A stretch of 64,000 nucleotides of DNA from Cymodocea nodosa (Eukaryota; Streptophyta; Magnoliopsida; Alismatales; Cymodoceaceae), in assembly GCA_036874045.1 (NCBI GenBank), contig CM072340.1, positions 3,859,001 through 3,923,000 on the forward strand. Reading direction: 5' to 3'. A program made the translations under genes and the position numbers. The notes under the pieces are model-generated. The model was not told the DNA's origin. It saw only the letters and a list, made by a program, of their open reading frames with translations, and did not search any database. Positions 17,195 through 53,983 of the stretch are shown one piece after another. The first letter of the stretch is position 1; every line of letters starts with the position of its first letter.

Positions 17195-17197
17195 AAT

Positions 17198-19384: not shown

Positions 19385-19396
19385 TGGATATTATTA

Positions 19397-20560: not shown

Positions 20561-22740
20561 ATGATGAGGAAGATGATGCTTGAATTCTGGGAAGATGTTA
20601 TTGATACATCAGAATTTCTAAAGGAATCAGAAGAGTGGCACACGCAGCAGAAGATCAGAAATACGACAAGAGAGAAAGAGCTACAGAAGGTAGAATCAGA
20701 ACTTTTCAAGTTTAGAAGAGATTTAGTAGATATGGATATACAAATACCTCAAATAATGGAAACACGAATCAGAATAGCAACAGAAATAGCTGTAAGCAAG
20801 GAAAGACAAATAAGGCCAAGTAATGAAGTTGCCTTAGAATTAATCCAGCGTAAGTCCCAACTCTGGTTCAAAAGATGAATCTATAGACAAGCTAAACGGG
20901 TGATCTGGGAGCAAGAAAGGAAAGCAAATGAAGAGGCAACTGAAGAACGGGAGGAACCAACTACTGAAAGACCTGTTCCTGAGGAGCAGCAGTCTGGACC
21001 TTCAGTTCCACCATTTAAGCCATTGGCACGAGCAGAAATGATGGGGCCTTCGACTGAAGAAGAAATAAGAGAATTTGCAGAACTGGTTCAAGTTGGAAAA
21101 AACCAAGGAGAATCGGAAGATTTGGCAGTGGCTAAAGCACACCTGGTGTTTGATGCACTGTACAAAAAGAGGGCTGCAAAAAAGTTGAAAGTCTAATATA
21201 AAATTAAAGTGGAACAGCATCAAGAAGCTACTGCCAGAACTATTGTTAGAGATGCTGCAAAAGAAGCTAAAGCTGGTCCTTCGAGACTAGCAATTATTAG
21301 AAGAATTAAACAGGAAGAGCCAGTACCTGTGGTTCGAAAGCCTGCAGAGCCTATTTTTGTAGATTTAATTTCAGAAGATGAAGAGGAAGAACAAGCACAA
21401 CTAATCAGAAAAAAGAAAGAAAAAGAAAAAGTGCCTGATTATAAAGAAATTAAATCTGAAGTACCAATTTTTACAGGGCCTGTGGAGCAGATTTTTATTA
21501 ACCTGCTATCCGAATTTGAGGAGGAGCAAGAGGAGCAAAGAAAAGAAAAAATCAGGCTGAAATTAGTTTGCAGCCTGTACAAGAAGAAACAGAAAGTAGG
21601 TCAGAAACTGAATTGCTCGTGACTCCATCCCAATCTGTTATAGAATCAGAAAGAACAGTAATAGAACAGATTGGTAGTCAGGAGGAAGAAGAAAGAGTAG
21701 AAAATGAAGAGGCTGAAAGAAGCCATTTGGACAAAAATAATTTCATAGATTCCACTGAAGAGCAAGAAACTCTTCAATAAATTATGGAAAGAATTCAAGA
21801 TAGAGTGGAGAGTTCTGCCAGCTCACCACCACAGATAGAAGCAAAAGCAAAAATTTAGGAATCTGAAGAGAATGTCCAAATGCAGCCTATGCTGGAGGAA
21901 GAGCAAAAGCAAACCCCTTTGGAGCAACAAAGTCACCTTCCTAACCCGATTAAAACAACAATTTTGAATGAAGTACATTTTTGTAGTTAGGAAGCTTATA
22001 CCAAATACCAAGAAATAAGGGGTTATGATATTATTTATAGTAGACTAGTAAATTTGGATGGAATGCAAGAAATCAAAGATCTATTTGAATTCCAAGGTCT
22101 ACTGCAATTTATATCTCAAGATAGAGGGCATGTAGTATATGAGAATTTAGTGCCCTATTTTTATGCAAATTTAAGAGAAGGAGAAGGAGGATTAATTTCA
22201 AACATGGAGGAAGCTGATGTACAGATAACACCAGAGCTTCTCCACAACATATTTGGTTTAAAGAATGAAGGAACAAAAATTTTGGAAGATACAACTGTAG
22301 TTGAATGGACTGAGCAACAAATTAAGGATTGTTTAACTATCAATCCTGGTGTGCCATTATTAAACAGATTGAAGCATTTAAATGGTAAAGGACACATGGT
22401 AGCTAACATTCTGATTAAGAATGTATATCAACGACAGGGCCATGACATAGAATTAAGTCAATTTGTCAAATGGGCCATGTATGCAGTTGTAAATAAGATC
22501 CAAATAAATTGGTCTGCAATTTTTATCTCCAAGCTGAAAACAGTGAAGAAGAAATTATTTTATAGAGATTTGATTCCACTACTGATGGTGGATAGTATTG
22601 ATTTCACTAAATGGACATTAAAAACGATAAGATCTAGAACCATTTCAGTGAAAGAATATAGAAATTTTGTAGCTGCAGAATTAGCTGTACCTTCTGGAGA
22701 AATTGCAGGAGCAGTAGAGAGGATAAATCAATTAGAGTAG
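20561..22740 (+). pseudogene. G1 ORF3: plant 'putative transposon protein'-like gene after pol
   Basis: About 2.2 kb in the env position, broken by stops and small shifts (open stretches 20561-20878, 20900-21196, 21209-21622, 21568-21780, 22054-22740). The N-terminal third is charged and coiled-coil-like (Glu, Lys, Gln). The middle is an acidic Glu-rich linker. The last about 228 codons form a globular domain with IKDLFEFQGLLQFI, YENLVPYFYANL, ITPELLHNIFGLKNEG, MVANILIKNVYQRQGHDIELS and NKIQINWSAIFISKL. This pattern fits the domain known as putative plant transposon protein (Pfam Transposase_32 type). It is clearly homologous to the SIRE-A ORF3 at 51713-53983. No signal peptide or membrane segment is visible, so it is not a typical envelope gene. 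Function unknown. Confidence 0.78.
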
Positions 22741-23218
22741 CAATTAGAAAAACTCTAGAAGGAAGTAGATGAACTTAGGTATAAAGATTGAATTGTATTG
22801 TTCGTCTACTTGTGTAAAATTGTATGATGTACTTGTAATGTAATTGATTCATATTAATGAATATAATTTTTCAGATGCAATTTTCATACGTATTTGAATG
22901 TGAAATGAATGAAATTTATTGAATATTATGTAATTTGTGGAACTTTATGAATATGTAACAGATTTACAATTTGCTAAATGATAGGATAACTGCTTAAAAA
23001 TTTCTGCATGTTATAAGGTAAAATGTAAATTATGCATAACATAAAATGACCTGCAATTTAAATCTTTATATAATGTTCAGATTTAAATGTATTTTAATCA
23101 AAATGAGGCATTAATGACATAGATTTAACTTTATTACAGTTAGCAGAATGAAAAACAGAAAAAAAAAAAAAAAAACAGAATAGAAAACTTACGAGAGTGA
23201 AACATAGAAGTTGCCAAG
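22741..23218 (+). other. 3' untranslated region of G1
   Basis: Non-coding A+T-rich sequence between ORF3 and the 3' LTR, with a 17-base A run at about 23161-23177. No clear polypurine tract lies directly before the presumed LTR start (TGTTAACTCAACG at about 23219), so that edge is approximate. Confidence 0.5.
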
Positions 23219-24142
23219 TGTTAACTCAACGAAGTAATTTGTTAAGTTAGAATTATGCACGTGTTGAATTTAAATGCTTTAGTAGATCACGTGAGATGCA
23301 CATGTTTAACTCGTTAAGTTAGCATAACTATACGTGTTGAGTTACATGAATGCACACTAAGGTAATGCGTTATGTAAGCAGCTTATTTTTTTATTGCACG
23401 TGTTTTATAGTTAAATCAACGAAGTAAGTTTGTTGAGTTATCTGTAACTCCACGGACCATTTATTTTCTAATATACCACTATAGCGGTTACAGAAACAAG
23501 ACATTTGAAGGAAAACCACGATTACACGTATCACGTAGGAATTCATTCATGGAAGGAAGAAGAAATCACCATCATTGATATGAATGAAGGAAATCCAACT
23601 GATCATCTAAGCAGAAGTAGTTACTACTAAGAAATATAAAAGTAAAGGACAAAAGATGAAGAAAGGGTGTGTGTAGAGGTGGAGGACCGTGCTAATTATA
23701 GGGAGCATCAGAAGTTCCTTGAAGCTCCACACCACTATCACCAACTATCAGAGGTCTGTGAGGATACTTTTCTGATGTCGGGTTGATTCCGAGCTAAACA
23801 CGGTGCCTGACAACCACTATGAGGAGTGATCGCATCGTAGGAAGGGAAGCCATTTTCATCAAGCACCAACTCATATCTTAGGAGATCGTAAAGCTTCTAG
23901 CCATGGTTTTAGGTTGATGCTAGTATGCTGAGGAGGAGATCATCTTGCAATTCTAGACTTGCGATTCTATAGGGAGAGGAGACAAGATTGTAAGTGACTA
24001 AGTTTTCAATGGTGTAATCGCGTCGCATGTAGTGACGAAAGTATTTACTATCGATAGAGATTTTTACATTTCACCCATTTTCATGAACATATCAAAACAA
24101 AATACCAAAAACAACAACTTATCTGTGTTTACATTTAGTATT
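23219..24142 (+). mobile_element. G1 3' LTR, first segment (left inverted-duplication arm)
   Basis: Athila-G LTR from about 23219 to the nested SIRE-A LTR. It contains ATCACGTGAGATGCACATG and TTTAACTCGTTAAGTTAGC (23285-23325), which are homologous to SIRE-A U3, then a TATA box (TATAAAAG, 23635-23642) and the transcribed region with GAGGTCTGTGAGGATAC and GGGAGAGGAGAC. It continues after the nested LTR at 24922-25106. From about 23236 onward it is nearly identical to the reverse complement of 59484-60398. Confidence 0.82.
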
Positions 24143-24921
24143 TGTAGGATCGTATGACTACACAAGAGAGGGGGGTGAATTGTGTTTTTCAATATTTTCG
24201 AATATAATTGAAACTTTAAAACTCAAAAATAAGTCGAGACATTGTTTTCATAAAATCATTTTTATTCAAGGTTTCAATTACAATATACAATTCAATTCTC
24301 CTTAGAAATTGTAGATGCAATTATATCTCGATACCATGTATCATCTAAACAATTTCATAATTACAAACAGAGAAAACTAATTTGCGGAATTTAAAACATT
24401 TCTCCTTGTTTGAGATCTTTTTTCTTCTTCTTTCTTCTTCAGCAATTCTTCAGTGACGAATATCTTCTTCGTAACTTATAATTTCACTACGTGTATAACA
24501 CTAACTTAACGAGTTCGTCTCTTCTTTTACTCACTAACTTAACGAGTTCTCACGTGACCTATTTTAACCATTAAGCATCTAACTTAACGAGTTCTCACGT
24601 GATCTCTATACAAACAAAACTCTAACTTAACTAGTTGTCTAAACGTGCACTATACATGATACAGAAATATAACTTTAAAACATATCATGCTTTTCAATAA
24701 AAACACACGTTAACTTAATGTTTAGTTAAATGAGAAATTAATGCAATGAAACAACTAGTTATTAACTTAGTATAATTTCAGATTCAATACAGACAAGTAT
24801 TTATATTAGTAAACTTTTTCTATATTAATCTATGATTTTAATTTCTTTTCACAAGCAACAGTAATTGAGTAAATATAATTATTTTCATTTAGCACATATC
24901 ATGAAAACAAAATACTCAACA
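24143..24921 (-). mobile_element. Short SIRE-A LTR (779 bp, internal deletion), left copy
   Basis: Both LTR ends are present (TGTAGGATCG and ...AATACTCAACA) and flanked by perfect GTATT duplications (24138-24142 and 24922-24926). The middle, from the U3 G-boxes to the GAAGAAG run, is deleted: ACGAATATCTTCTTCG is followed directly by TAACTTATAATTTC. The copy at 58706-59483 has the same target duplication and the same deletion point in inverted orientation, so both derive from one insertion. Confidence 0.93.
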
Positions 24922-25106
24922 GTATTTAAGTGTTGTATTGTTTGTTTTGTATCGTGATTAATGTTATTATTGTCAATATTGTGAATGTTTTATGTTTGTT
25001 TGATTCAGAAGATAGAAAATAGTTTTACAGTTGACTGAAATTGATTCGTTCGAGATACTTAAAGATTTTAATGGTTACTGCTTTAAATATCTGAATGTTA
25101 GTGTTG
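24922..25106 (+). mobile_element. G1 3' LTR, second segment
   Basis: Athila LTR sequence resuming after the nested SIRE-A LTR (GTATTTAAGTGTTGTATTG... to ...TGAATGTTAGTGTTG). It matches 15345-15512 of the 5' LTR and the reverse complement of 58521-58705. It stops at TGTTG (25102-25106), the target duplication of R. The LTR's final part is missing on this side. Confidence 0.85.
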
Positions 25107-26475
25107 TGTTCGAGGTTTAAATGTTATGAAATTAACACACAACCGAGTTTTAATATTTATAACCGCAAGCACACTGAGTCAATTATAGAAAGCATGTAAG
25201 AACGGGTTGAGTGCACAAGGATCAACAATTAAATACAAAATTCACTAGACTTTATAGATATGCCTTGTGTACATGCATTATTATCACATGTTTGCCTTAA
25301 CAATCATGTGAACGTAGAAATGACTTCATATAGAATTGAATCAGTAATGAGAAACCTCATACATGTACCTCTCTATCCATCACTTAAGAGAAAGCATCAC
25401 ACAATAATTATTAAACTACAAACATAGAAAATACAATTACACTACATCAAACTACCAATTCTACTATAAAACTAGCATACATGGGCTTATAACCATACAT
25501 CTACATCCATGTATGCTCTAATCTATTAAGTACACGCTATATACAATCAAAACCAAGTAAATCAGGAGGTTAGAGTTAAGTAAAAAAATGTCTAAACTAT
25601 GTTAGAGTTAGAGGAACAAACATTTGAGAAGAATTCACACAAGGACACATAAAATCAAACACATAAGAGGCAAAAACTCAAACTAAACTTAGAATTGAAA
25701 TTCATTGAAACTAACACAAGAATTCAACATTACAATAAGGGGAAACACGTGGACAACACAAACAACAACAATTAACAAACATACAACATCAAAACAGGAA
25801 ATACAAACAACTCCATCTCAACTCATAGTTCATCTCCTCACCTTAAGCTCACGTCTCCAATGATCTTTTCACAAGGGATGTCACCTCCTTGCTTTAGCCA
25901 CCAAAGATGTCTACCTTCTCCACCAATTCTCCACGCCTAATGCAGCTTGTTCCTTCCACGGATTGGAGGTCCAACGCCGAAAGGAATGCAGCAACATGTA
26001 GAACAAGGGAGTGCACTCTTGAAGATACTTCACTACACCCCAACTTGTCTTCTCCAAGGCTTCTCTCCTCCATGGATTCAACTCCTCAAAGAGTAATTGT
26101 AGCAGCAATTCAACCTCCCTAATGGTGAAGAATGCCAGAGAAGGAAGTGGAGAGAACAAGGGAAGGGAGAGACCTACCTCGAAGAGCTGTTTGGAAGAGA
26201 AATCACCATGAGTGGAGCTCCTTCACCTCCTTGCTTGGAGCACCAAGGGGGATTCCGAATTTTGGAGTTGGAGAGGGGAGAAAACTTGTGGGATACAAGG
26301 CCTATTTATAGAGATTTTTGATCATCAAGGATTGATGATCCCAAGGCTTGATCTAAGGGCCCTCATTCACCTATAATCAAATCCATTTAAGTCATGCAAG
26401 TAATGTTAGTAATACATGCCAAAAGTAACTCTAGTTATGAACTTGAAATATATTTATTTCTAAGGTATGTAACAT
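25107..26475 (-). mobile_element. R solo LTR, truncated copy (left arm)
   Basis: Reverse complement of the R LTR seen complete at 56740-58520. It begins TGTTCGAGGTTTAAATG and runs to GGTATGTAACATT, about 410 bp short of the full length. It is then fused at about 26467-26477 to the RT region of a minus-strand SIRE-A copy; both sequences share TAAC(A/T)TT at the junction. An 82-codon open frame (26159-25911, minus) is preserved in both R copies, but I see no recognisable domain. Confidence 0.85.
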
Positions 26476-28848: not shown

Positions 28849-28882
28849 GATCTATTTTGATGTTGTTTCCTCTTGCAACAAA

Positions 28883-31140: not shown

Positions 31141-31326
31141 TTTACCTTGGATTTTTCAACCTATTTGATTTTAAACAGTCTAAAAACTTTAAAACAACTT
31201 GAGCCTTAAATCAATAGAGTTAAACGTATGCTCAGATATTAATTTTCGTTTAAAAACAAGGAAGGTAGAATAAGCAATGATATTAAATAAGTTGGTATCG
31301 ATTTTATATCAAAGATTATTCACAAA

Positions 31327-31338: not shown

Positions 31339-31340
31339 CT

Positions 31341-32079
31341 TGTAGGATCGTATGGCTACACAAGAGGGGGGGTGAATTGTGTATCTTTAATATTTTCTGA
31401 AATATAATTGAAACTTTTAAACTCAAAAACAAGTCGAGACATTGTTTTCATAAAATCATTTTTATTCAAGGTTTCAATTACAATATACAATTCAATTCTC
31501 CTTAGAAATTCTAGATGCAATTATATTTTGATACCATGTATCATCTAAACAATTTCATAACTACAAACAGAGAAAACTAATTTATGGAATTTAAAACTTT
31601 TCTCCCTATTTGAGATCTTTGTTCTTCTTTTTCTTCTTCAGCAATTCTTCAGTGACGAATATCTTGTCTTTTCATGCTTCACCGAATTTGCTTTCTTTTG
31701 ATACTTCAAATCTTCAGTGACGAAAATCTTACCTTTTTATGCTTCACTGAACTTTCTTCCACTTGAGAGATTTTCCCTGAGAAGGTGTTTTTGATCCTTG
31801 AAAAAGATTTTTCTTTTGGTGTGCAGGGATGGTTTGATCCTTAAAAAGATTTTTTGTTTTGTGTGCAAGGATAAATTGATCAACGAGAATTCTATACCTT
31901 TTATACTGTATCTTCATTTCATGCATATCCTTCACGTTTAACCACTACCAGTTTTCCACTTCTCCACGTCTTTTCTTTTTCCTTCATCGAAACACACATG
32001 TTCTAACCCACATTTATATTTTGAATTTCCTTTAATCATTAGTCTTGGATCTCTGAAAAATTTCCTGCAAAATAAACTT
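31341..32079 (-). mobile_element. A' 5' LTR, truncated
   Basis: Reverse complement of the SIRE-A LTR from its 3' end (TGTAGGATCG) through the TATA region to ...AAAATAAACTT. The U3 start, about 870 bp, is missing. The sequence switches to a SIRE-B LTR with a 4-bp overlap (ACTT, 32076-32079) common to both, so the junction looks like microhomology-mediated deletion. Confidence 0.88.
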
Positions 32080-33205
32080 AATTAGGATAAAGTCCTAATA
32101 CGGCAAGTGACCTTTCAGAAAAACGTTTCAAGTCAACTTACCGATTTTCCTGTTCTTTTGGATAGTTAGCTATGCAACTCTCCGAAGAGTAACTGTAACT
32201 CATCGAAAGATAACTTATCCTTTACTGCCAGGTAGGATTCTAGAATATTTAAATTTGAGCTGTCATCCAATCGGATACTTATAACTGTAACTCACCGAAC
32301 AGTTGTATACTTGACTTTGTCAAATTTCGGAAGGTTATTTTTCTAACTCTCCGAAAACTTATTTGAGCCACTGTTTGGAATTCTACACGTGGGAAATTCG
32401 ATGACTTAAGTTTCGGATGGTTAAATTGTAACTCATCGAAACTCTTTTGAAATTTCGGATAGTTATCCTTCTAACTCTCCGAAAACCTATTTGAGCATCT
32501 GTTTGGATTTCTGCACGTGGGAAATTCACTGACTTAAGTTTCGGATAGTTAAACTGTAACTTACCGAAACTCTCTTTTAAATTTTGGATAGTTATCCTAA
32601 CTCTCCGATTTTCCCATTTAAGTTTTCAACTGCCGTCTTCCTCCATTTTGCACGTGCGTAAAAAAAAAAGACTTAAGTTCCGGAAAGTTATGCTTGTAAC
32701 TTACCGAAAAACTCAAATAGTTATCTAACTCTCCGAAAAGAAAACTCGGATAGTTATCTAACTCTCCGACAAGTCTTTTAATCTTCTGTTCTGTATTTCT
32801 GCACGTGGTTTATTGAATGACTTAACTTTCAGATAGTTATACCTGTAACTCTCCGAAAAGTCCATTAAGCTTCCAGATAGTTATCTCCTTAACTATCCGA
32901 TCATTCAATCCCTTTAACTGTTTGATTAACTAACTCTCCGAAGGCTTTGTAAAATCGGATAGTTATTCTTTTAACTATCCGATAGCATTGCTGCTGCTTT
33001 AAACTTGCTCTTCGGATACTTAGACCTGTAACTGTCCGATTTTGTTGAATCTTCTTGATCTGTTCATCTGGAACCTTCTTGATCTTTTCATCTGTCTGGA
33101 AATAGTTCTAACAACCTTCTGATCTAATGTAGTAAGACTTAACTATGAAATACAATATGTTTCCTCACATAGGTTTTGCATTATCAAAATACTCGGGTAC
33201 TAACA
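32076..33205 (-). mobile_element. SIRE-B 3' LTR, truncated
   Basis: Reverse complement of the first about 1,125 bp of the SIRE-B LTR (compare 38835-39962). It ends at 33205 with ...CTCGGGTACTAACA against the polypurine tract. The last about 580 bp and the outer flank are lost in the fusion with A'. The body is an array of TTTCGGATAGTTA / TAACTCTCCGAAA palindromes with GCACGTGG boxes. Confidence 0.9.
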
Positions 33206-33480
33206 ATCTCCCCCTTTTTGATAATGACAAAAGCCTTTACAATTATTTACATGTATTTCACTCCCTAGTGTATTTCTATACATTTAGTCACACGAAAAAA
33301 CATAAAACATGAAATTAACACAACTATACTAACAATGAGGGATTCCTCCCCCTGACTTTGAGCAGACTTCTCCCCCTATCTGTGTGTTGAGTTTTTCTCT
33401 TTTAATTCTTGCTAGAAATACTGTGAGTGACCATATACTTGACAAATTTCCAAATCCTTCTCCCCCTTTTTGTCATTATA
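33206..33480 (-). other. Multiple polypurine tracts of SIRE-B
   Basis: On the minus strand, AAAAAGGGGGAGAT (ending at 33206) abuts the 3' LTR. Three more GGGGGA-type tracts lie upstream in the element, at 33347-33352, 33371-33376 and 33471-33480. Several polypurine tracts before the 3' LTR are a known trait of Sirevirus (SIRE-type) elements. The region between 33481 and 33599 is non-coding. Confidence 0.75.
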
Positions 33481-33599
33481 TAAAAAGGTGAGGACTATAA
33501 AACTGATATAACCTGCACGAGTAGGTTAGCAGAAAAACAAGCTCCCATGTTGTGAGCTTGATGAAAAAAATATTTAAAGATCTTGTAAAGAACATATTC

Positions 33600-36500: not shown

Positions 36501-36650
36501 ACATTTTTCATTATTTCCAAACTTAATAGATCCTGAACTTAAGTTTTTAACTAAGTCAAGAAAGTTTTTCTTACCTGTCATGTGCTTTGAGCATCCACTG
36601 TCCACAATCCATTTAGTTGATCGTGCTTGAAACTCCTTGTCACCCTGCAA
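33600..36650 (-). pseudogene. SIRE-B Pol: protease, integrase, RT, RNase H
   Basis: Three long blocks in one frame, reading down the minus strand. 36650-35652 has WIVDSGCSKHMTG (protease) and VWHRRLGHINM with CSECMLGK (integrase zinc). It also has HLDLFGPS, IRSYHGGEFE and QNGVVERKNRTLQ (integrase D-D-E); Tyr-His replaces the usual Asp region wording but the fold is clear. 35594-35064 is the integrase C-terminus. 35018-33948 is RT with FQMDVKSAFLNGE and IYVDDIVFGATSED. RNase H follows (GYSDANYAGSRSDRKSTSS, then AEYIAAGLCCAQ across a stop, and HSRAKHIEIRHHFLRDHVEKG). Only a few stops occur, one being Trp to stop at about 35650. There is no third ORF between Pol and the LTR, unlike SIRE-A. The RNase H wording is SIRE type. 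Confidence 0.93.
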
Positions 36651-36828
36651 ATCATACTGAAATTAAAGCTTTTGATACCTAGATCTTCTTGGGTCCAGAG
36701 GAGTTAGTCCTTAAAACATTAAATTTATTGCCTCTTGGCAGCCACATATGACCTGATCTTCGTTTGATGGCAAACATAGTGGTGCCATCTCTATAAGATC
36801 GAATCACTCCACCACAATAAGGTATTTC

Positions 36829-38210: not shown

Positions 38211-38236
38211 GTTAAATCTTATGAAGGATTAACCTT

Positions 38237-38248
38237 ACTCTGATACCA
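38237..38248 (-). other. Primer-binding site of SIRE-B
   Basis: TGGTATCAGAGT on the minus strand, two bases from the 5' LTR end at 38251; one base from the canonical initiator tRNA-Met complement. Confidence 0.88.
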
Positions 38249-38250
38249 AT

Positions 38251-41200: not shown

Positions 41201-42951
41201 AGCATAAAGTTACACTTCACCCTTTTATATCAGTCATAGTCCATCCTATTGCTTCTTTATAAGTTTTTACTACATCTTTTAATTTAGCAATTTGATCCTC
41301 TTTTAAATCTGAAGCAATAATGATTGGACATGTTTGTTTTTCTTCCAAAAATATATAGGTTAATTCAAGAGGTCAAGGTTTTAATTCTAACTGTTGCCCA
41401 TTAGAAGCTAGGGCTCCTAATTGAACATCATCATTTTCTAAATTAATTTCTTCCTAATCTCCTTCTATATTTATGCTTTCACTTTCTTCTAAAGTTTTAG
41501 AATTGAGTTGCTTATTTAATTCTTCTTGAATCACATCATCTAGCATATCTCCTTCATCCTCTAAAAGTCTATAGTATGTAAGGACATTTCTAACTTCTCA
41601 AAGTTTTCAGGTTTGAAAATGTTTAATTGAGTATCATCATTACCATATGCTAACTTCATTACTCTAGTTTTACAATTAATAACAGCCCCTGATGTTGCTA
41701 AAAATGATCTTCCCAAAATTAAAGATGTATCATTATTTTTATGCTTAATTTGTTGGGAATCCAAAATTACAATATAAATAGGATATATGAAGTTTTTCAT
41801 TTTAATTAAGACATCTTCTATTTTTTCTCTAGGGTATCTTATACTTCTATCAGCTAATTGAATAACAGTCCTAATAGGGATTAAGCCTTCTAATCCTAAG
41901 GATGCAAATATATCACTTGGCATAACATTTATACCTGCACCTAGGTCTATTAAGGTTCTTTCTAGAGTGATATTTCCTATGGTGCATGATATAATAGGAA
42001 TTCCAAGATTAGATCACTTTCTAGGAATTTGTGGTAGAAATAGGGAACTACTTTGCTCAGCTAAAAAGACTTTCCTTAAAACTTTTTGCTCTCTTTTCTT
42101 AGTACACCAATCCTTAAGAAATTTAGCACAAGGTGGCATTTTCTATAATAAGTCTAACAAAGGAATGTTAACTTGTACTTTTTCAAAAATTTCTCTAATT
42201 TTTTCTTATTTTTTAGGAAATGTCTGTTGTAATCTTTCAAGATAGGGTGCTAATGATTGTGATTTAAAAGATTCTTTTTCTTTCATTTGATTTGCTTGGT
42301 CATTTTTAGTCTCATTTTTAGATTCATATTTTTCTTCATTAATTGCTATATTTTCAGTTATTACATTTTCATTATCATTTTGATTTTTGCTCTTATCCAC
42401 CTTCATATTATTTTCTTTTTGAATTCTTGGTGGTATATCAGTTCTAGATCTTAATGTTATACATACATCTTCTAGATTTTCATTACTTTCTTGATGTTCT
42501 TGTATATCATTTTTGTGATTATGATCTTCAACTGTTTTTAGTTTTAAATTGCATTCTTTAAATTCTATTGCATTAGTATTTTCATTTATTTGTATGTCTT
42601 GCAAATTATGCAAATCTATAACATGAAAGTTTTCATTTGTGTTTTCCTATTGCATAACTTGTAATTTCATTGTATATTCATCCAATGCTTTTAGTTTTCT
42701 TTCTAGATCATCAAATCTCATTACATTCAATTTTTGATCAATTTTCATTATGGTTTTTTCAGTTTCGTAAATGATATCAATTTTAGGTTTTGAATATTCT
42801 TCTCTATAGTTTAATTGATTGACTTCTTGATGTTGATACATATATTATTCCAGTTTGTTCATGTTTTACTCTAAGCTACACTCTAGTCTATCATACCTAT
42901 CCCAAACTTCATTGTCTCTCAACATATTACACATTCTAAGCTGACCATTAT
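41201..42951 (-). pseudogene. G2 Gag C-terminus and protease
   Basis: Reading down from 42951: broken Gag frames matching G1 (42841-42647 and 42613-42206, charged coiled-coil region ending SLAPYLERLQQTF), then the protease (about 42000-41561: LIDLGAGINVMPSDIFASLGLEG, RSIRYPREKIEDVLIKMKN, SLILGRSFLATSGAVINC), and the acidic linker to RT (41560-41201). The upstream part of this Gag lies at 55967-56245, because the complete SIRE-A element sits between 42952 and 55961. CATTA at 42947-42951 is the left copy of its target duplication. Confidence 0.87.
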
Positions 42952-44561
42952 GTTGAGTATTTTTGTTTTGATGATGTGTGCTGAATGAAAATAATCATAT
43001 TTCCTCAATTACTATTGCTTGTGAAAAGAAATTAAAATCATCAATTAATACAGAAAAAGCTTACTGATATAAATACTTGTTTGTATTGGATTTGAAGTTA
43101 ATATCTAGTCGTTTCGTTGCATTAATTTCTCATTTAGCTAAACGTTAAGTTAACGTGTGTTTTTATTAAAAAGCATGATATGTTTAATGTTATATCTTCT
43201 GTATCATGAACAATGCACGTTTAGACAACTCGTTAAGTTAGAGTTTTGTTTGTATAGAGGTCACGTGAGAAGTCGTTAAGTTAGAGGCTTAAAGGTTAAA
43301 ATAGGTTACGTGATAACTCATTAAGTTAGTGAGTAAAAGAAGAGACGAACTCGTTAAGTTAGTGTTATACACGTGGTGAAATTATAAGTTATGAATGTTG
43401 TATTGTATCACGTGAGGTGCACATGTTTAACTCGTTAAGTTAACATAACTAAACGCATTGAATTGCTATATTGAACACTAAGGCAACGCGTTAGGTTAGC
43501 GTTATAAACTTAAGTTGTTATTTTTGCACGTGGTAAAATTCTTATTATAAAAACATTTGTTTATTACTAGTTCGTTGAGTTATCATAACACAACGGAAAT
43601 GGTTCGTTGAGTTATCATAACACAACGGAGATGGTTCATTGAGATAGCATAACACCACAGACTTAGTTCGTTGAGTTAGCTACAGTACTTGTCACGTGAA
43701 ATGGCACATGAGGAACTTGTTAAGTTAGATACGTTAAGTTATATATATACTTGTGTTACTCGTTTAGTTAACATTAAAGTAACGACTTCTTATTACATTG
43801 ATGAAAAACTTTTGGACGAGAAAGTTTATGTTGCAGGAAATTTTTCAGAGATCCAAGACTGATGATTAAAGGAAATTCGAAATATAAACGTGGGTTGGAA
43901 CGTGTGTGTTTCGATGAAGGAAAAAGAAAAGACGTGGAGAAGTGGAAAATTGGTAGTGGTTAAATGTGAAGGATATGCATGAAATGAAGATACAGTATAA
44001 AAGGCATAGAATTCTCGTTGATCAATTTATCCTTGCACATAAAACAAAAAATCTTTTCAAGGATCAAACCATCTCTGCACACCAAAAGAAAAATCTTTTT
44101 CAAGGATCAAAAACACCTTCTCGAGGAAAATCTCTCAAGTGGAAGAAAGTTCAGTGAAGCATAAAAAGGTAAGATTTTCGTTGCTGAAGATTTGAAGTAT
44201 CAGAAGAAAGCAAATTCGGTGAAGCATGAAAAGACAAGATATTCGTCACTGAAGAATTGCTGAAGGAGAAAAAGAAGAAGAAAGATCTCAAATAGGGAGA
44301 AAAGTTTTAAATTTCGCAAATTAGTTTTCTCTGTTTGTAGTTATGAAATTGTTTAGATGATACATGGTATCGAAATATAATTGCATCTACAATTTCTGAG
44401 GAGAATTGAATTGTATATTGTAATTGAAACCTTGAATAAAAATGATTTTATGAAAACAATGTCTCGACTTGTTTTTGAGTTTTAAAGTTTCAATTATATT
44501 TCAGAAAATATTAAAGATACACAATTCACCCCCCTCTTGTGTAGCCATACGATCCTACAAG
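42952..44561 (+). mobile_element. 5' LTR of the complete SIRE-A element
   Basis: A 1,610-bp LTR, TGTTGAGTATTTTTG to CGATCCTACA, preceded by CATTA (42947-42951), the left target duplication of a 13,010-bp element (42952-55961). It has the G-box/CTCGTTAAGTTAG array (about 43210-43740), TATAAAAGG near 43996 and the two about 40-bp direct repeats. Against the 3' LTR I count only scattered differences, about 2% in stretches compared by eye, so this is a recent insertion. Confidence 0.96.
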
Positions 44562-44563
44562 TG

Positions 44564-44575
44564 GTATCATAACAT
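44564..44575 (+). other. Primer-binding site of SIRE-A (degenerate)
   Basis: TGGTATCATAAC, two bases after the LTR. It differs from the initiator tRNA-Met complement (TGGTATCAGAGC, as in A') in its last part, which would weaken priming. Confidence 0.8.
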
Positions 44576-44759
44576 TGTTAATAATCTTTGATATAAAATT
44601 GATACCAACTTATTTAATATCATTGCTTATTCTACCTTCCTAGTTTTTAAACAGAAATTAATATCTGAGCATACGTTTAACTTTCTTGATTTAAGGCTCA
44701 AATTGTTTTAAAGTTTTTAGACTGTTTAAAATCAAATAGGTTGAAAAATCTAAGGTAAA

Positions 44760-47018
44760 ATGGCTACTGGAAATGGTAATTTTTCTTTATATGAAGGCCA
44801 AAATCTTAATCGTCCTCCTTTATTTCATGGAATACATTTTGAATATTGGAAATATAGGATGATTGTTTTTCTTCAAAGTATAGATCATAAGTTGTGGTTC
44901 ATGATTTCTAAACCATATACTCCGTTAACTACCCCTTATAATACTTGGACAATTACTGAAAAAGAAAATGAAACTCTGAATGCTAAGGGCTTAAATATTT
45001 TATTCTGTGTATTGAGTTATGAACAGTTCAGTAAAGTGTCGGCATATAAATCTGCTTATGAGGTGTGGCATGCATTAGAAGTTTCACATGAATGTACTTC
45101 TCAAGTTAAAGAGACTAAAATAAACATGTTGATTCATAAGTACGAACTCTTTAAGATGCATGAAGACGAAAATATTTCTGAGATGTTTTCTAGATTTCTT
45201 GATATCATAAACTCTTTAAAATGTTTAGGAAGGAATTTTGAATAGAACGATTTGGTGAGGAAAATTCTCAGATCCCTAAGTTCTAAATGGTCTCAGAAAG
45301 TAACATCAATTGAGGAATCACGAGATTTAAATGTTTATACTATGAATGAACTTATAGGAAATTTAACAGCTTATGAAGTTCAATTAAATGAATCACTAAG
45401 TCACAACAAACTAAAAATGAAGAAAGAAATAACCTTCAAAATTAATTCAGATTCTGATATATCTACTGATTCTGACGAGGATTTGATTTTGCTAACTAGG
45501 AAATTCAAGAAAGTATGGAAAACTAGGAAACAGTAAAGGAACAAAAATGATAAACCCTCAACGTCAAAATCATTGAATGACAAGAATTCTTCATCTAGAA
45601 AGTATGTATGTTACAACTGTAAGAAACCTAGATATCTTTCTCGAGATTGTCCTATGAGGAAAAATGAAAAGCAAAGTAGGACAAATCAGAAGAAGACAGC
45701 TCAGAAAACTCAGAAAAAGTTTTACAAGAAAAAGGCTTTGAAGGTCACTTGGGATGACACGTTTGAAAAGTCTGAATCAGAGGAATCAACATCAAAATCT
45801 TCACATTCAGAAGGAAAACAAGAGTTAGAAGACGTTGCTCATGTGTGCTTCATGGCAGATGAGTCTGAGGTAATATCTGATCCTGAAAGTCATTCAGATT
45901 TGAACTTTGATGAATTATTATGTGCTTATCATGCATTATTTCAAAAACTTAAAGTATGTAAACTGGAAAATAAGAATATTAGAAAATCTTCATCCATTAT
46001 GGAAGAAGAAAATTGTTTCCTGTCTACTACTTTAGAAAAGTTTAAATGTGATAATGAAAATCATGCTAGAGATTTGCAAAAATTTAGATTTAATGAATGT
46101 ATCTTGCATGAACAAATACAGAATATAAATGCTGAAAAATTAAAGATAGAATCTGAAAATGAAATGTTGAGAAACAATATAAATGAACTTTAATTAGAGA
46201 TAGAAAAATTAAAACTAAGAGAGCAAGATTTAAATTCTACCTTTAAGAAATGGAATTTAAGTCAAACTAAGTTAGACAAACTAACTAGTACCCCTACGGT
46301 GTCTTATAAATTTGGCTTAGGATTTGATTATCCTAAATATCCTGAATCTCAAGCCAATAAAGGATTTATTAGTTGCAGTTCAAGTAAATCTAACACTAAA
46401 ATTCCTTTTATTATGAAACAAGGTAATAAATATGTAGAAGTAGGCACTTCAAGGGATGAATCATGCAGTAATAATATAAATCAATGTGATTTGTCAAATT
46501 GTACTTCTAACATGACTATAAATGTTTCTAAAAATCTTGTTTCTTGTTCTGGAAATTCAATTTCTAATGTTTCTAAAATTTCAGACAATTGTAGTAAACT
46601 GAAAATTCAGAAACCTGAGCATGTAATTCAATACATTGGTATTAGACCAATTACTCATTCTGCATGTGATAAAACTAAAAATTCTTGTGCAGAAAAAGAT
46701 TTTGTATGTACGGAAAATGTTAATACAAGTACAAAATCTTGGTATGAACTTACAGAAATGTATAAGCATGACCAAAATAAATTAACATCTAATAAAAATA
46801 TGTTTGGTCTTGATTATACTACATCTGAAAACAAAAAGAATGATTGCAAAAACAATAATGCTATATGTGATTATGAAGCTAATGATAAATCAATAGTACT
46901 TACAACTAATAAGAATATAAATGATAATGTTAAACTATTTTTAAACAAAAAGAAGAAATATGCGTTTAATGAACTTGGTCCTCAACAACATTGGGTACCA
47001 AGAAAAAGTTTTTCTTAA
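44760..47018 (+). pseudogene. SIRE-A Gag
   Basis: Start ATG at 44760. Capsid (UBN2-like) region LFHGIHFEYWKYRMIVFLQS and YEVWHALEVSHECTSQVKE; stop at about 45243 (Gln codon changed), another at 45535 and another near 46192. The zinc knuckle (45615-45650) reads CYNCKKPRYLSRDC, with Tyr in place of the His ligand that A' retains. A long tail with coiled-coil (45950-46190) and an Asn/Ser-rich segment follows, ending WVPRKSFS and stop (47018). Pol overlaps the end of Gag in the +1 frame. The same arrangement is present in A', so the frame change predates both copies. Confidence 0.9.
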
Positions 47019-50000
47019 TTTGTTGCAGGAGGAAACAACATCAAAATGGATCTTGGACAGTGGAGCGTCAAGTCACATGACCGGACAAAAAAGTTTATTA
47101 CAAAATTTTACAAATACCATGAAAGAAAGTGTAACATTTGGAAACAACAGCAAAGATAAAATTATAGGTACGGGCAATGTTCAAATAACTCCTACTTGTG
47201 TTATTTCGAATGTACTATATGTAGAAAACCTAGGATTTAATTTCCTAAGTGTCATAAAACTAACTGAAAATGGATATTATGTAGTGTTTGAAGATAATGT
47301 ATGCAAAATAATTGATAAAAATATAGATGAAATTAAGTTTATTGCCAAAAGAAAAGGCTCTATATGTATTTTATCTTTACCTTCTGGTGCAGTTGATTTA
47401 AATTCATGTTTGCTAGCTGAAACTAGTGATGCATATCTATGGCATAGAAGGATTGGGCATATAAATATGAGACTGTTACATAAACTATCTAGAAAACATT
47501 TAGTGACAGGTTTACCAAAGATTAAATACTCAAAGAACTTTATGTGTGATGCATGTGAGTTAGGTAAACTTCACAAAAACTCTTTTAAATCCAAAACTAA
47601 TATTTCAAGCAAGAGAGTCTTAGAACTTATACTTATGGATCTATTTGGACCAACAGGAATCATGAGTCTTGGTGGTAAACGGTATGTATTTATTTTAGTA
47701 GATGACTTTTCTAGATATACTTGGGTATATTTTCTAGCATCGAAGACAGAAGTTTTTGAAAAATTTAAAATGTTTTGCAATTTTGTTCAAAATGAGCAAA
47801 GTGTCTCTATTCAAAAACTTAGGAGTGATCATGGAACTGAATTTGATAATGATCAAATGGATAACTATTGTAATGAGCATGGCATTGATCACAGATTTTC
47901 TTTTCCAAGAGCACCGTGTCAAAATGGTGTTGTTGAGAGAAAGAATAGATCACTCCAAGAAATGGCTAGAACTATGTTGAATGAACATAAGTTACCTCAA
48001 AATCTTTGGGCTGAAGCAGTAAATACAGCTTGTTAAAAGTCATTTAAGACCTCATGTTAATAAAACTCCTTTTGAAATTACGTTTAATAGGGTTCCAAAA
48101 ATTTCCTATATGAAACCATTTGGCTGCAAGTGTTTTATTCTTAATACTAAGGATAAAAGGGATAAATTTCAAGCCAAATCGGATGAAGGAATTTTTGTAG
48201 GTTACTCTACTAGAAGTAAAGCCTATGGAGTATATAACAAGACTTCTAGGACTATTGAAGAAACCCTCCATGTAAGCTTTAATGAAAATTCTCTTAGAGA
48301 ATCTCAATCTAAAGCTAATAATGATGATATGATCAATTTTCCAAATGTGTTAGAGATCAATAGAGAGATTGATGATTTATCTGAGAAAATCAAAAATATG
48401 AACTTAAATGATCAAACTAATGATGAAAGTGATGGACTTTCTGATATTGATGAGAATATTGAGGAAAATCAGAGAAATTGGCGTTATTCTTTATCACATC
48501 CCATTACTCAAGTCATTGGTAATATTAATGAGGGAGTTAAAACTAGAGCTTTAGTAAATTTAAATAGTATGTGTATGTTTGTTTCTATGGTGGAACCAAG
48601 GAATATAGAAGAAACATTATCTGATGAAAATTGGATATTGGCAATGCAAGAAGAACTAAATCAATTCATCAGAAATGATGTATGAGATTTAGTTTCTCCA
48701 CCCAAAAATCAGTCCTAAATAGGTACAAAGTGGATATTCAGAAACAAAACTAATGAGATTAGTCAAATTATAAGGAATAAAGCTAGATTAGTTGCACAAG
48801 GGTATACACAAGAAGAAGGATTAGATTGTGGTGAAACATTTGCTCCTATGGCTAGGTTAGAAAGTATTAGAATATTATTGGCCTATGCTTGTTATATGGA
48901 TTTTAAATTATATCAAATGGATGTAAAGAGTGCATTTCTAAATGGTTTAATTAATGAAGAAGTCTATGTAAAACAACCATCTGGATTTGAAGATATTAAA
49001 AATCCTAACTTTGTGTATAAATTGAAGAAAGTCTTATATGGTTTGAAGCAAGCACCTAGATCATGGTATGAAGGATTATGTACTTTTTTAATAGAAAAAG
49101 GCTATATCATGGGAAAAGTGGATCATACTCTATTTATTAAGAGAGATGATAAAGATTAGATTGTTGTTCAAATATACGTAGATGATATAATCTTTGGAGC
49201 AACCTCTGATAAGTTGATAGAAATATTCTCTGAAGAGATGACTAATTAGTTTGAAATGAGTATGACAGGAGAACTTTCATATTTTTGAGGACTTCAAATT
49301 AAGCAAATGGATAAAGGTATATTTTTAAATCAGGAAAAATATGTAGATGAAATGCTTAAGAAATTTAATTTTAATGATACAAGGATTCGAGGAACTCCTA
49401 TGAGTACTACTTTAAAGTTAGATATTGATGACATAGGAAAATCCATAGATCAAAGAAAATACAGAAGTATGATTGGTTCTTTATTTTATTTGAGTGCTAG
49501 TAGACCTGATATTATGTTTGCTGTGTGTGTTTGTGCTAGATTTCAATCTAATACTAAGGAATCACACTTAATTGCAGTTAAAAGAATATTTAGATATATA
49601 CGAGGAACTAAAAATTTCGGACTGTATTATTCTAAGGATAGTTCAATAGATCTTATAGGATATACTGATGCTGATTATGCAGGATCTAAATCTGATAGAA
49701 AGAGTACCAGTGGCACATGTCAATTATTGGGAAATAATTTGGTGTCATGGTTTAGTAAAAAGCAAAACTGTGTAGCACTTTCTACTACAGAAGCTGAATA
49801 TGTTGCTGCTGCACTGTGTTGCACTCATATTCTGTGGATAAGGCAAGCTTTAGAATATTTTGGATTATCTTATGATACAACTGAGATTTATTGTGACAGT
49901 AGTTTTGCAATAAATCTTTCCAAAAATCCTATATTACATTCAAGAGCAAAGCATATAGAGGTTAGACATCATTTTCTAAGAGATAACGTAATTAAAGGAA

Positions 50001-50125
50001 AAATTAAATTAGAATTTGTGTCTAGTAAAAATCAATTAGCTAATATATTTACAAAACCTCTAGACGAAAATACATTATGCAACATTAGATTAAATTTAGG
50101 TATTTGTAGGCTATGTGATGTGTAA
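46960..50125 (+). pseudogene. SIRE-A Pol: protease, integrase, RT, RNase H
   Basis: The open stretch 46960-48036 encodes KWILDSGASSHMTG (protease, 47056), LWHRRIGHINM and CDACELGK, LMDLFGP, LRSDHGTEFD and QNGVVERKNRS (integrase D-D-E). A small deletion near 48030 relative to A' (about 12 bp) shifts the frame. Integrase C-terminus 48110-48685. RT has YQMDVKSAFLNG (about 48920), YGLKQAPRSWYE, a Trp-to-stop at 49157, then IYVDDIIFGATSDK (about 49175). RNase H 49307-50125: GYTDADYAGSKSDRKSTSGT, STTEAEYVAAALCC, HSRAKHIEVRHHFLRD, ending at a TAA (50123-50125). Stops at about 48685, 48716, 49248 and 49288 make it non-functional. SIRE lineage by RNase H wording. Confidence 0.93.
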
Positions 50126-51612
50126 AATACTTAAACTCCACATAAAAAGATAAATATTATTGATGATGTTGTTCACCTCATAGATATTATATACTTATGA
50201 TAAATATCTAAAGTAATATCTAAACTGCTGCTTAAGATACTATGTATTTATTGTAAAATGATAGTAGTATCTTATTGATTTTAAGTAGTTTATCAATTTT
50301 AATAGTTTTTACGATTTTAAGTGGAAGTGTAAATGAAAAACATTAAATACTTCTGACATTCTGAAATTTTGATTAAATGTTTTCTTTGAATCAAGGAAAA
50401 TGCATATGATCATGCATAAATTTGACTTAATTGATTAAACTTGTAGAATAAGTTATATGTAACTCATCTTAAACTGTTAATCAAAAGTATAAGCTTATTG
50501 AAACTGATTCATATTCTCAGTACAATCATAGAAGTAAAAATTGTATGAGATTTGTGTTTTATTGCATCTGTATTAATGGAATACATATATATTGTGCTTA
50601 AAATGAAAAGTGCTTACAAAGTAAAAATCTTTGAGAGTTTATTGATCAGTTTGATCACGAGCCTTTTGTACTTGAGCTGATAGGTATGTAAGGATTGTTG
50701 TCCTGAAAAAGGATTCTTTAAATCTGGCAACCTAAGGTCCTGATCAGATCTGGGATTGTTGACTAAAAGCTCATTACACAGGTACATTAGAAAGCTCTTG
50801 TATGATTCAAGCTTTTCAAACTAACTTTTAAAGAAAATTATCAATATTTACTGTTTTGAAAAGAAAAAGTTGTTTCATTAATTACAGATATCTTTGAATC
50901 GCATATAGTTTATACCAATATGACTACTGATTTGTTGAATCAACATTAGTACTTTTGAAAACGTTTATTTGAGATACATTCTTTTATTCTCCTTGAATTA
51001 ATCGAATTGAGTTCAAAGTTGTGTTTTGATTCATATACAGTAGGAATTGATTCTGGAAATCATTTTTTGATGATGTTAGGATAACGGAAGTCTCTAAAAA
51101 GAAAATGTAAAAGTATAGTTATATTTAACATCTATTGTCACTACAAGTATATTTTGTATTTTGATTGAATATATTTGAAGTATATTTGTAGGGGGAGCAT
51201 TAAAAATGTCAAAAACAGATTAATATAATTTAAAATACAAATCTTAGTTAATCTGAATTAATGTCCTCTTAAAATCTTGATGAAATAATTTAAAAAGACA
51301 AATAAACTATTTTAGATTCAAAGGACAAAATGTTCAAATAGTTTACAATGTTCTCAAGATAATGCTAAGTTTTAGCATGTGTGTTGTTTTCGGAACGTTT
51401 CAGTTGGAAGCATCTGAAAATTGTTTTAAGTGTACTAACTAGACGTTATGTTAGATAAGGTAACGTGTAAAACTGCCTCTAGACAGCGTTTTACTCGTTA
51501 GGTTAGTTAACTCACCGAGTTATACTTGAATATTTCGGGTACTTTGATTGAATAAGCTTTATTCAATATTTATTTAATTTCTAAACCCGACTTCTCTTCA
51601 CGTTGAGTTATA
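50126..51612 (+). other. Long spacer between SIRE-A Pol and ORF3
   Basis: About 1.5 kb of A+T-rich, non-coding sequence. A GGGGGAGC polypurine-like tract occurs at 51191-51198, and GTTAGGTTAGTTAACTCACCGAG (in part) at about 51500 recalls the LTR motifs. No ORF longer than about 60 codons and no recognisable domain. Confidence 0.6.
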
Positions 51613-51712
51613 CGCCTAAAAACCCTATTTAAACACTTATAACATGGGGACTTAGGTTATTTGTAAACTTTATCAAGAAAATCTTTCCCGCTTGTTGCTG
51701 TTACAACCTGCG
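51613..51712 (+). promoter_or_regulatory. Promoter-like leader of SIRE-A ORF3
   Basis: CGCCTAAA (51613-51620) and TATTTAAAC (51626-51634) lie about 80 bp before the first ATG of ORF3 (51713). The same two words in the same order precede ORF3 in the Athila element G1 (20443-20468), and the bases just before the ATG are also similar. Conserved non-coding text in two different superfamilies supports a regulatory role; whether promoter or RNA-processing site is not known. Confidence 0.5.
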
Positions 51713-53983
51713 ATGATGGTCTCTAAGTTCTACAAAGGTCATGGTAGAGAAAAAGACAAAAGCAGAAGAGATGCAAAAGGAAAAGAAATAGAGAATGATG
51801 AAGTTCCACGTACTTGGTTCAAGAAAATATTTCGAGTGGACAAAAGGTTAGAAGAACTTTATAGAGATTACTTCTTTTCTCAGGATATATTAGATGAAGT
51901 TAGACAAGAACTTCAACATACTAATGCAAGTATTACATACATGGGTATTCGAAGTAAATATGATAGAGAATACAGAATGAAATGTGCTGAGATTGCATTT
52001 TTGGAACAGTATGCAAAATATTTGGAAAAAGGTGTAGGTTCATCAAATAGAACTCTTCAAACTCCTTTAAATGGTACAAGACTACATGCATTTGAGGAAG
52101 AGCATGAATCAGCTATCCCTACTCCTTTATATTAAAAACAAGTAGAATTAGATATTGCTGTAGACAAAATAAAAGTTGACAGTCTTCGAAAGGCCGTTGC
52201 AGTAGAAAGTGCCTTAGAAGAATTAAAGCAGAAAACTTTTATGGAGCAATTTGAAAAGAAAACAGCAATACTTGAAAAGGAGAAACAAAAATGTTATAGA
52301 AGTAGGAAAGTCAGAAAAATTATGTCTAAGGAAATAATGTCTATTGAAAAAGGAAAATTAGATGAAAATTTATTTCCAAAGGACAATGTATGTCTAGACA
52401 TTGTACCTTATTGTGCATCTGATAAACTCATCTGTTCCAAACTCACTGAAACTGATGAAGATAATGAGACTTTATTTTCCCTTGATAGAAAACTTGAGAA
52501 GAAATCCAAGTCAAATATGAGCTCAAGTTTTTCTATTAGTACAAGTCCTGATGATGTAGAAATTGACAAATCAGAGCATCAGACACCTAACATTGAACAA
52601 GTTATTGCAGATATAATTGACAATGTTGAGGCAATAACTAGTTCAAAGGCTAAATTGTCTGGAGTAGCAGATATTGAAAATGTTAAGACTTTAGAAGAGC
52701 TAAAAGTTAACCAGCCTTCTACAGAATCTATAGAGGCAGAGTCTGAGAATTCACGGCATGAATCAATGGAAATATCTGTTGAACAAAATGAATAATTACA
52801 GACAGATACACCAGCTGTAGAATTTATGGAAAAATTGTACTCTGAACATTCTATAGAGACTGAACAAATGAATGTTGCGCATATTGACAATGTTCCTAAC
52901 ACTGTTGAAGCTGAAGAATCAAGCTTACCTGAGCAGCTTCAAGATAATATTTTGGAAGAGGAACAACATGACATTCATTTTGAAGAAGAGGTTTCTGAAG
53001 ATGAATTGAACTTTGAATCACAGCTTCAGGTATCACCTTCTTTGTGTACAATATTAAAAATTCAAGGTAATGCAATTCATTTTAGATCTGAAGAAGCATT
53101 GTAGAAATACAATAATCTGATTACATGTCAGATTCTGCATGCTCGTCCAATAAAATTCAGAAATTTGATGGAAATAAGAGATCTGTTTGAGTTTCAAGGC
53201 CTCATTAAATTCTTGCCAGTAGGAACGAAATGGAAGCAATACATAGAGCTTATTATAGATTTTTATAGCAATCTGGTCAAGAATGGAAATTTTCTGAAAA
53301 CTCAAATAAATGAATAGGAGTTTATATTGTCTCCTGAGTTAATTTTTGAAGTTTTAGGATTAAAGAATGAAGGTGTTGTTGTTACCAACAGATTTGACAT
53401 AATAAGACAACTGGAATGGAACATTCAGTCTTTATCAAAAATTCCAGATGTATATTCTGAAATGAGATTAATGGAAAATCTGAATGTAGAGGCAAGGTTT
53501 ATTGCAAATATATTACATGCAAATTTATTTCAAAGAGTTGGACACAATATGGAAGTTAGCAGAAGTTGTTTATATGCAACTTATAGCTTGCTGAATAGAA
53601 TTCAAATCAATTGGTTTGATGTTTTCACTTCTCAACTACAGCATATGAGTTCAAAGTTATTTTATGGTGATGCTGTATGTAGACTCATTGCAAGCCAATT
53701 GAATTTATCCGACTAGCCGTCTGAAACTAAAGGCATGAGAGCATTTAGTGTCAAAGATTTGCAAAAATTCCAGGCCATGCATAAACCTCAACGACAACAA
53801 CAACAACAACCTGATATAGACCATATACAACTACAACAACAAAGTTATTCAGTTCAAGCAGAACAGCAAATCCAGCTACCTCCTGACTTAGATGCAGTGC
53901 TTAACGACATTAGAAATGATATTAGGCATCTAAGAGATAAAATATGTAATGCTATAAGTGATATACTTAGGAGGGGTCGATAA
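51713..53983 (+). pseudogene. SIRE-A ORF3: plant 'putative transposon protein'-like gene after pol
   Basis: About 2.27 kb in the env position, broken by a few stops (open stretches 51713-52135, 52241-52795, 52826-53104, 53327-53716, 53735-53983). The N-terminal part is basic then coiled-coil-like. The middle is acidic, Glu/Ser-rich. The C-terminal domain (about 53090-53716) has KYNNLITCQILHARPIKF, MEIRDLFEFQGLIKFL, IIDFYSNL, LSPELIFEVLGLKNEG, FIANILHANLFQRVGHNMEVS and NRIQINWFDVFTSQL. Block by block it matches the G1 ORF3 domain in the same order. The C-terminus is Gln-rich (PQRQQQQQPDIDH, then QLQQQ). No membrane segment or signal peptide is visible. SIRE-B lacks this gene. Function unknown; similarity to the plant Transposase_32-type domain is by pattern only. 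Confidence 0.78.

Follow-up and report, generated by a model that had tools for sequence, protein, structure and literature searches.

The question raised by this locus is how a Ty1/copia and a Ty3/gypsy element came to carry what a preliminary description took for the same third open reading frame (ORF3) behind pol. The locus is a 64,000-nucleotide stretch of Cymodocea nodosa DNA (contig CM072340.1, positions 3,859,001 to 3,923,000, forward strand; in our numbering G000:C12:3859001-3923000), here called the window, which has a GC content of ~32% and is a nest of long terminal repeat (LTR) retrotransposons. The two elements are SIRE-A, of the Sirevirus type of Ty1/copia, and G1, of the Athila type of Ty3/gypsy, and each indeed holds, downstream of pol and ahead of the 3' LTR, one ORF of ~2.2 kb, though both ORFs are interrupted by stop codons and that of G1 is also frame-changed. 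The C-terminal ~230 residues of the two ORF3s are homologous. The reading that we favor, with moderate confidence, is that one abundant Athila-type and one abundant Sirevirus-type family each carry a post-pol gene with a C-terminal domain of common origin. This domain would long ago have moved from one superfamily to the other, or have been acquired by each from a single source, with the N-terminal parts replaced or diverged past recognition. In both families, ORF3 would be transcribed from its own internal promoter, laid out as CGTTRAGTTA sites followed by a TATTTAAA box and the ATG, through the same host factor as serves the LTRs. The product would be a soluble intracellular protein with a charged N-terminal part and the conserved C-terminal domain, and may have an accessory role within the cell, such as particle or nucleic-acid handling or the countering of silencing, rather than that of a fusion envelope.

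The blocks on which the kinship had been proposed, DLFEFQGL, FY(A/S)NL, PELxxxxGLKNEG, ANIL...NxxQRxGHxxExS and N(K/R)IQINW, are all present in both ORF3s, in the same order and with the same spacing. BLASTP between the stop-free C-terminal pieces of G1 and SIRE-A gave E values of 8e-27 and 6e-11, and tblastn against the window aligned 228 residues without gaps at 32% identity (E 2e-38), an identity that fell to 4–9% when one sequence was shifted by 1–10 codons in either direction. Comparison of the family alignments by hhalign (8 gypsy-type and 10 copia-type copies) returned a probability of 99.75% over 223 columns, the match reaching an SVK(E/D) block near the end that is common to both. Because no similarity between G1 and SIRE-A was detected by tblastn in the N-terminal and middle pieces, the ‘same third ORF’ of the preliminary description narrows to ORFs with a common C-terminal domain.

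ORF3 is resident in both families. Searches of the own genome (374.6 Mb) yielded at least 150 copies of the gypsy-type domain at 89–94% identity, the window's own copy aside (150 scored of 12077 first-look candidates), and at least 150 copies of the copia-type domain at 95–100% identity, own copy included (150 scored of 10116). Among the 30 best loci of each type, ten were taken and their flanks fetched 3 kb further upstream. The end of the gypsy reverse transcriptase (RT), RNase H and integrase lay upstream of ORF3 in all ten gypsy-type copies; the integrase, its matches split into pieces in three of them, passed the point at which that of G1 breaks off and reached residue 618 of a 619-aa plant reference (P0100). 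All ten are colinear, with gypsy pol, ~830–950 bases beyond what the window G1 holds, promoter, ORF3 and 3' untranslated region (UTR), and because of these extra bases the pol–ORF3 junction of G1, ahead of which the second half of its integrase is lost (rve profile positions 6–75 of 102), is the product of an internal deletion and not a native junction. Copia RT/RNase H preceded ORF3 in 8/10 copia-type copies; the remaining two are rearranged, and an eleventh copy, L082, has copia pol as well. Downstream, the 3' UTR of G1 is kept in 30/30 gypsy-type loci, none of which matches the copia tail or copia LTR over >150 bp, and copia-type loci retain the copia tail (28/30) and copia LTR (29/30). At none of these 60 loci (30 gypsy-type, 30 copia-type) did DNA matches of >150 bp to both ORF3 types occur together. 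Distant members likewise have like pol upstream, gypsy L096 before L085 and copia L095 before L092 of a third SIRE subfamily, each pair probably representing a single element across the 2.8–3.3 kb between.

Some loci have a mixed appearance. Near position 2065450 of G000:C11 (L075/L058), a gypsy gag-pol fragment directly abuts a copia ORF3, and the copia-type locus L077/L036 is interrupted by a gypsy LTR. Upstream of the copia-type L036, L077 (G000:C12:10050734-10053734) contains the promoter and start of a gypsy-type ORF3, then ~770 bp that are 74–76% like the SIRE-A linker, DNA resembling window positions 60807–60594 and finally a gypsy LTR; it is possibly a gypsy/copia mosaic.

Low dN/dS ratios in both families show that both domains were maintained as proteins by purifying selection and decayed after insertion. 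The window G1 and the five diverged gypsy-type copies whose matches are gapless gave 0.11–0.25 in 15/15 pairs, and SIRE-A with L092 gave 0.15 over 57 codons. For 30 copia-type copies, of which 4 have stops, the ratio was 0.17; for 30 close copies of the gypsy type, of which 15 have stops, it was 0.49. In a tree of 27 rows, the 9 copia rows grouped as a single clade (100/100) whose branch is long (2.63), and the 17 gypsy rows were more diverse; bootstrap values had not fully settled, with 4 of 24 inner branches starred, and L081, a third gene of this kind described below, was too divergent to root the tree. The two deep ORF3 clades are each congruent with their own pol, so the sharing is ancient, in a manner compatible with either direction. 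A recent swap by recombination is unlikely on the same grounds and with 0/60 loci matching both ORF3 types over >150 bp, L077 with its gypsy-type ORF3 start notwithstanding. The earlier statement that the ORF was ‘captured or exchanged’ is compatible with both transfer and independent capture from one source. Within the SIRE lineage, L092/L095 (G000:C14) resembles SIRE-A by 84% in ORF3 DNA and by 70% in RT DNA, its RT being 75% like that of SIRE-B, a further copia element of the window; the difference between 84% and 70% hints at an ORF3 exchange inside this lineage.

The control sequences ahead of ORF3 revealed a further likeness. The motif CGTTRAGTTA (RM) has 56 exact sites in the window, where 100 dinucleotide shuffles average 0.17 and never exceed 2, and 138 sites with at most one mismatch versus 9–16 in five plain shuffles, often in both orientations side by side. 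Every exact site falls within an LTR or LTR fragment, in either superfamily, or just upstream of one of the ORF3s (20336 and 51601). In the copies fetched, RM sites (at most one mismatch) form one cluster of 2–4 per copy, lying ~190–275 bp before the ORF3 ATG in 10/10 gypsy copies (35 sites in all) and ~110–270 bp before it in the 7/7 copia copies that reach the promoter (all 22 sites), L080 ending short of it and L075 and L077 being rearranged. L083, whose ORF3 DNA is 76.5% identical to that of G1, has the same RM block in the same place. Downstream of the cluster, a TATTTAAA box precedes the ATG by 101–104 bp in the gypsy copies (as TATTTAAAC in 10/10) and by 84–90 bp in 7/7 copia copies. 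Moreover, the stretch ahead of ORF3 in the gypsy family is similar to the RM block in its 5' LTR (score 68 versus 29.2, sd 3.5; 0/200 shuffles as high). Since, in both families, CGTTRAGTTA fills the LTRs and recurs where a TATA-like box and then the start of ORF3 follow, a predicted internal ORF3 promoter under LTR-like control is suggested. Separately, a gypsy LTR type seen in L016 and L077 contains a 105-bp block 93% identical to a copia LTR block (window 43428–43532), the corresponding value for the window G1 3' LTR being 73–79%; this points to an exchange of LTR DNA across the two superfamilies.

As to the protein itself, the suspected kinship with Transposase_32 (PF20167, gathering cut-off 45 bits) was borne out as a distant one. 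G1 scored 24.5–24.8 bits (E 2.3e-5 to 2.9e-5), the SIRE-A piece 16.9 and the copia copy L082 26.5, all under the cut-off. When the own genome was searched with PF20167, 31 candidates yielded 14 matches at E 0.001, 11 of them gypsy-type by similarity, 2 copia-type (L082, L092) and one, L081, apart. L081 is the best match found there, at 45.0 bits exactly on the cut-off, and because it also aligns to the gypsy-type (G1) family with 98.1% probability in hhalign, the ORF3 domain is a distant relative rather than a formal member of Transposase_32. L081 itself (G000:C7:15000700-15005000) has decayed gypsy RT fragments far upstream and an RVT_3-like piece downstream. A protein database search with the G1 domain gave 0/305 candidates at E 0.001, although RT gave 7985 hits in the same database, with many named plants among the 120 listed. 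The two-family alignment found a single hit among 1581 candidates, P0121, a 115-aa sequence on a 745-base public contig with 90% identity to the SIRE-A (copia) domain over 102 residues, so the domain family is present in another public data set. Viral contigs gave no match, a PDB sequence search nothing under E 0.5 and Rfam no match at gathering scores.

The finding that ORF3 lacks a membrane segment also held: in the open pieces, the highest 19-residue Kyte–Doolittle mean was 0.99, a scan made without a signal-peptide program and with one G1 middle stretch (21621–21777) scored in a frame with stops. Taken together, ORF3 would encode a putative intracellular accessory protein.

Of the explanations that compete with ours, chance similarity or a low-complexity bias, which the GC content and the charged-residue-rich parts of the ORFs might invite, has a practically negligible probability: the E values of 8e-27 and 2e-38, the register-shift control and the hhalign result rule it out, and the domain is free of low-complexity stretches. 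That ORF3 arrived in one of the two elements with a separate insertion behind pol is highly improbable. The broken integrase of G1 would fit such an insertion, as would its LTRs, of which the matching parts are only 75–81% alike and the 3' one is 97.8% like that of another element; the colinear order in 10/10 other gypsy copies, the 30/30 gypsy-type loci that keep the G1 3' UTR with 0/30 copia tail or LTR matches, and the two LTRs and target duplication of SIRE-A stand against it, and the fetched flanks exclude it for both families, as the refuting case considered in the preliminary description. An improbable reading, too, is that ORF3 is a retrovirus-like envelope gene. Its place between pol and the 3' LTR and the name env-like given to Sirevirus and Athila post-pol ORFs in passages of PMC2829016, PMC1142308 and PMC4093653 speak for it, and against it stand the absence of a strongly hydrophobic segment from the open pieces scored and of any Pfam glycoprotein match to ORF3.

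Two independent captures of Transposase_32-like host or transposon genes, by an Athila ancestor and by a Sirevirus ancestor and without direct exchange, would be a serious, if less probable, alternative. They would explain the two deep clades and their long joining branch as well as the dissimilar N-terminal parts; L081, a third Transposase_32 gene of uncertain host element, fits too, and published extra ORFs, as far as described in PMC6317226, appear to have been acquired independently many times. What opposes this alternative is the same position and strand of ORF3, the same RM–TATA–ATG layout and the LTR motif common to both families. A further-reaching view, that ORF3 and its RM–TATA promoter form a mobile regulatory-plus-coding cassette moving between gypsy and copia, with LTRs trading motif blocks, strikes us as rather unlikely; if true, the two superfamilies would have a host transcription factor and an accessory protein in common and might even complement each other. 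Several points weigh against our favored reading of a common-origin domain with its own promoter. The alignment of the G1 and SIRE-A ORF3 promoters is weak (28/2000 shuffles and 1/28 other ATGATG sites were as good), and similarity between the families over longer stretches of the promoter was not found; with the direct alignment weak or null, the common layout could be convergent. RM copies within one family are kin by descent, hence 10/10 does not stand for ten independent events, and the loci sampled were the best-scoring ones and not a random sample. Promoter and TATA calls are sequence-based predictions, and structure prediction of the domains, proposed earlier as a check, produced two AlphaFold2 models of very low confidence (mean pLDDT 36.8 and 39.7).

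Coordinates of the window's features discussed here are collected in Table 1. G1 extends from 14797 to at least 23219 on the + strand, with Pfam matches in gypsy order at 17198–20142 (protease-like, the match slightly under the cut-off, RVT_1, RNase H, H2C2 and rve), the order of RT end, RNase H and integrase recurring in the 10/10 other copies. Its primer binding site, which we take to be Athila-type, adjoins the 5' LTR and has three mismatches to the Athila 18-mer (TGGCGCCGTTG...), a match attained by 0/100 shuffles. Positions 23236–26476 and 57151–60399 are inverted copies, 97.8% alike, both with the same copia solo-LTR fragment within a gypsy LTR; the G1 5' LTR is without this fragment. 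Because the 3' LTR has this close twin and is only 75–81% alike to its own 5' LTR, the two ends of G1 may derive from different elements.

SIRE-A shows copia order, with integrase (46960–48033) upstream of the RT region, and its stretch 48639–50107 matches one of SIRE-B that contains the SIRE-B RVT_2 match. The octamer AGGGGGAG of the polypurine tract (PPT) stands at 51190, 54033 and 54339, the terminal one beginning 10 bp before the 3' LTR with the edge set by the TG of the 5' LTR, or 12 bp with the BLAST edge; it occurs in 28/30 copia-type and 0/30 gypsy-type loci. CGTTRAGTTA clusters in both orientations occupy the SIRE-A LTRs and 51444–51610. SIRE-B, described earlier as a close relative that lacks ORF3, indeed has no room for it, as SIRE-A pol homology stops at ~33592 and the 3' LTR edge lies at 33207, with four PPT octamers in between; the kinship is only moderately close, its RT being 59–68% identical to that of the 8 SIRE-A-type loci in which copia RT is present. 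The CGTTRAGTTA copies in the LTRs of this element without ORF3 are all imperfect (0 exact). A further copia element at 7818–13243, with gag_2, SH3 and RVT_2 matches and LTR fragments 91% alike, is nearly devoid of CGTTRAGTTA.

Table 1. Features of G1, SIRE-A and SIRE-B in the window (RM, CGTTRAGTTA; PPT, polypurine tract)
Feature	Positions	Strand	Remarks
G1 5' LTR	14797..16005	+	5' side truncated by copia LTR fragment; RM sites 15636-15724, TATAAAT just downstream
G1 primer binding site TGGCGCCGTTGTTAGGGA	16006..16023	+	none in 100 shuffles
G1 gag-protease-RT-RNase H-integrase	16024..20145	+	integrase ends inside catalytic core at ~20130 (internal deletion)
G1 ORF3 upstream region	20131..20560	+	RM dyad 20322-20345; TATTTAAAC 20460-20468
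G1 ORF3	20561..22740	+	broken by stop codons and frame change
G1 ORF3 C-terminal conserved domain	21991..22737	+	open piece, 249 aa
G1 3' LTR (TGTTAACTC...)	23219..26465	+	interrupted by copia solo-LTR fragment 24142-24921
SIRE-B, copia relative without room for ORF3	32076..39962	-	profile and BLAST matches
SIRE-A, Ty1/copia, Sirevirus type	42951..55961	+	both LTRs; 5-bp target duplication CATTA (42946-42950, 55962-55966)
SIRE-A 5' LTR	42951..44559	+	97.4% identity to 3' LTR; RM-rich
SIRE-A copia integrase, RT, RNase H	46960..50150	+	profile and BLAST matches
SIRE-A linker	50151..51712	+	PPT octamer 51190-51197; RM cluster 51444-51610; TATTTAAAC 51626-51634
SIRE-A ORF3	51713..53983	+	broken by stop codons
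SIRE-A ORF3 C-terminal conserved domain	53093..53776	+	tblastn
SIRE-A PPT octamers AGGGGGAG	54033 and 54339 (span 54033..54346)	+	sequence scan
SIRE-A 3' LTR	54349..55961	+	start deduced from 5' LTR; 54351 by BLAST

Parts of this picture are already in print, namely Transposase_32 in a post-pol Athila ORF, post-pol ORFs in SIRE elements and ORF3 sharing in rotifers. In the accessible text of PMC11728184, the sunflower element Athila 14 carries Transposase_32 (PF20167) in its post-pol ORF(+), whose product is predicted by its authors to be nuclear; like G1, this is a Ty3/gypsy Athila with an additional ORF in sense orientation at the 3' side and a partial PF20167 match, and a transmembrane helix is reported there for another ORF, ORF(-), not for ORF(+). 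Compared by description only, the sunflower protein differs in its length of 487 aa, and that text reports neither a copia counterpart nor a common promoter motif. Two Medicago Athila-clade families have extra ORFs reported, in the portion of PMC2533021 at hand, as unlike known Athila env ORFs. On the copia side, SIRE-A resembles the Sirevirus envelope-like gene or eORF-3'F of the SIRE lineage in position and sense orientation, and in palindromic repeated motifs in the LTRs and ahead of the gene (both PMC2829016 and PMC6317226, in part), as well as in having several AGGGGGAG PPT octamers, of which the last lies ~10 bp from the LTR (sections of PMC2829016). It differs in that the published motif has a CGG-CCG core, absent from the CGTTRAGTTA found here (no separate scan for a CGG-CCG motif was made), and in that kinship with a gypsy ORF is not mentioned in the portions of those two papers available. 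According to the available part of PMC6317226, post-pol ORFs occur in 74% of SIRE elements, in 19 groups with little mutual similarity, and extra ORFs of plant LTR retrotransposons, commonly termed envelope-like if located behind pol, fall into 45 groups in copia and 314 in gypsy; legume SIRE-like envelope-like ORFs are described as mutually similar in an excerpt of PMC4093653.

Across element groups, Arabidopsis Athila elements show module exchange, with conflicting gag and env trees, like the exchange considered here, but among Athila families only, as far as PMC2410132 is accessible. In the literature searched, with most subscription papers and supplements outside its scope, we found no statement of an ORF3 domain or control motif common to plant copia and gypsy elements. 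New here is the occurrence of CGTTRAGTTA in the LTRs of both families and in front of ORF3, where a TATA-like box and the gene's start follow. A selected domain common to both superfamilies, together with the matching upstream layout, offers a concrete target for finding the function of the ORF, and the common domain argues against the envelope idea for this ORF type. A parallel comes from bdelloid rotifers, where unrelated groups of retroelements have ORF3s of the same type (DEDDy exonuclease, GDSL esterase). That case differs in involving other protein families, animals, and LTR versus Penelope-like elements, and the available text of PMC5408684 describes no common regulatory motif. Our observations suggest that plant retrotransposons, as has been reported for those of rotifers, take their accessory genes from a pool common to them.

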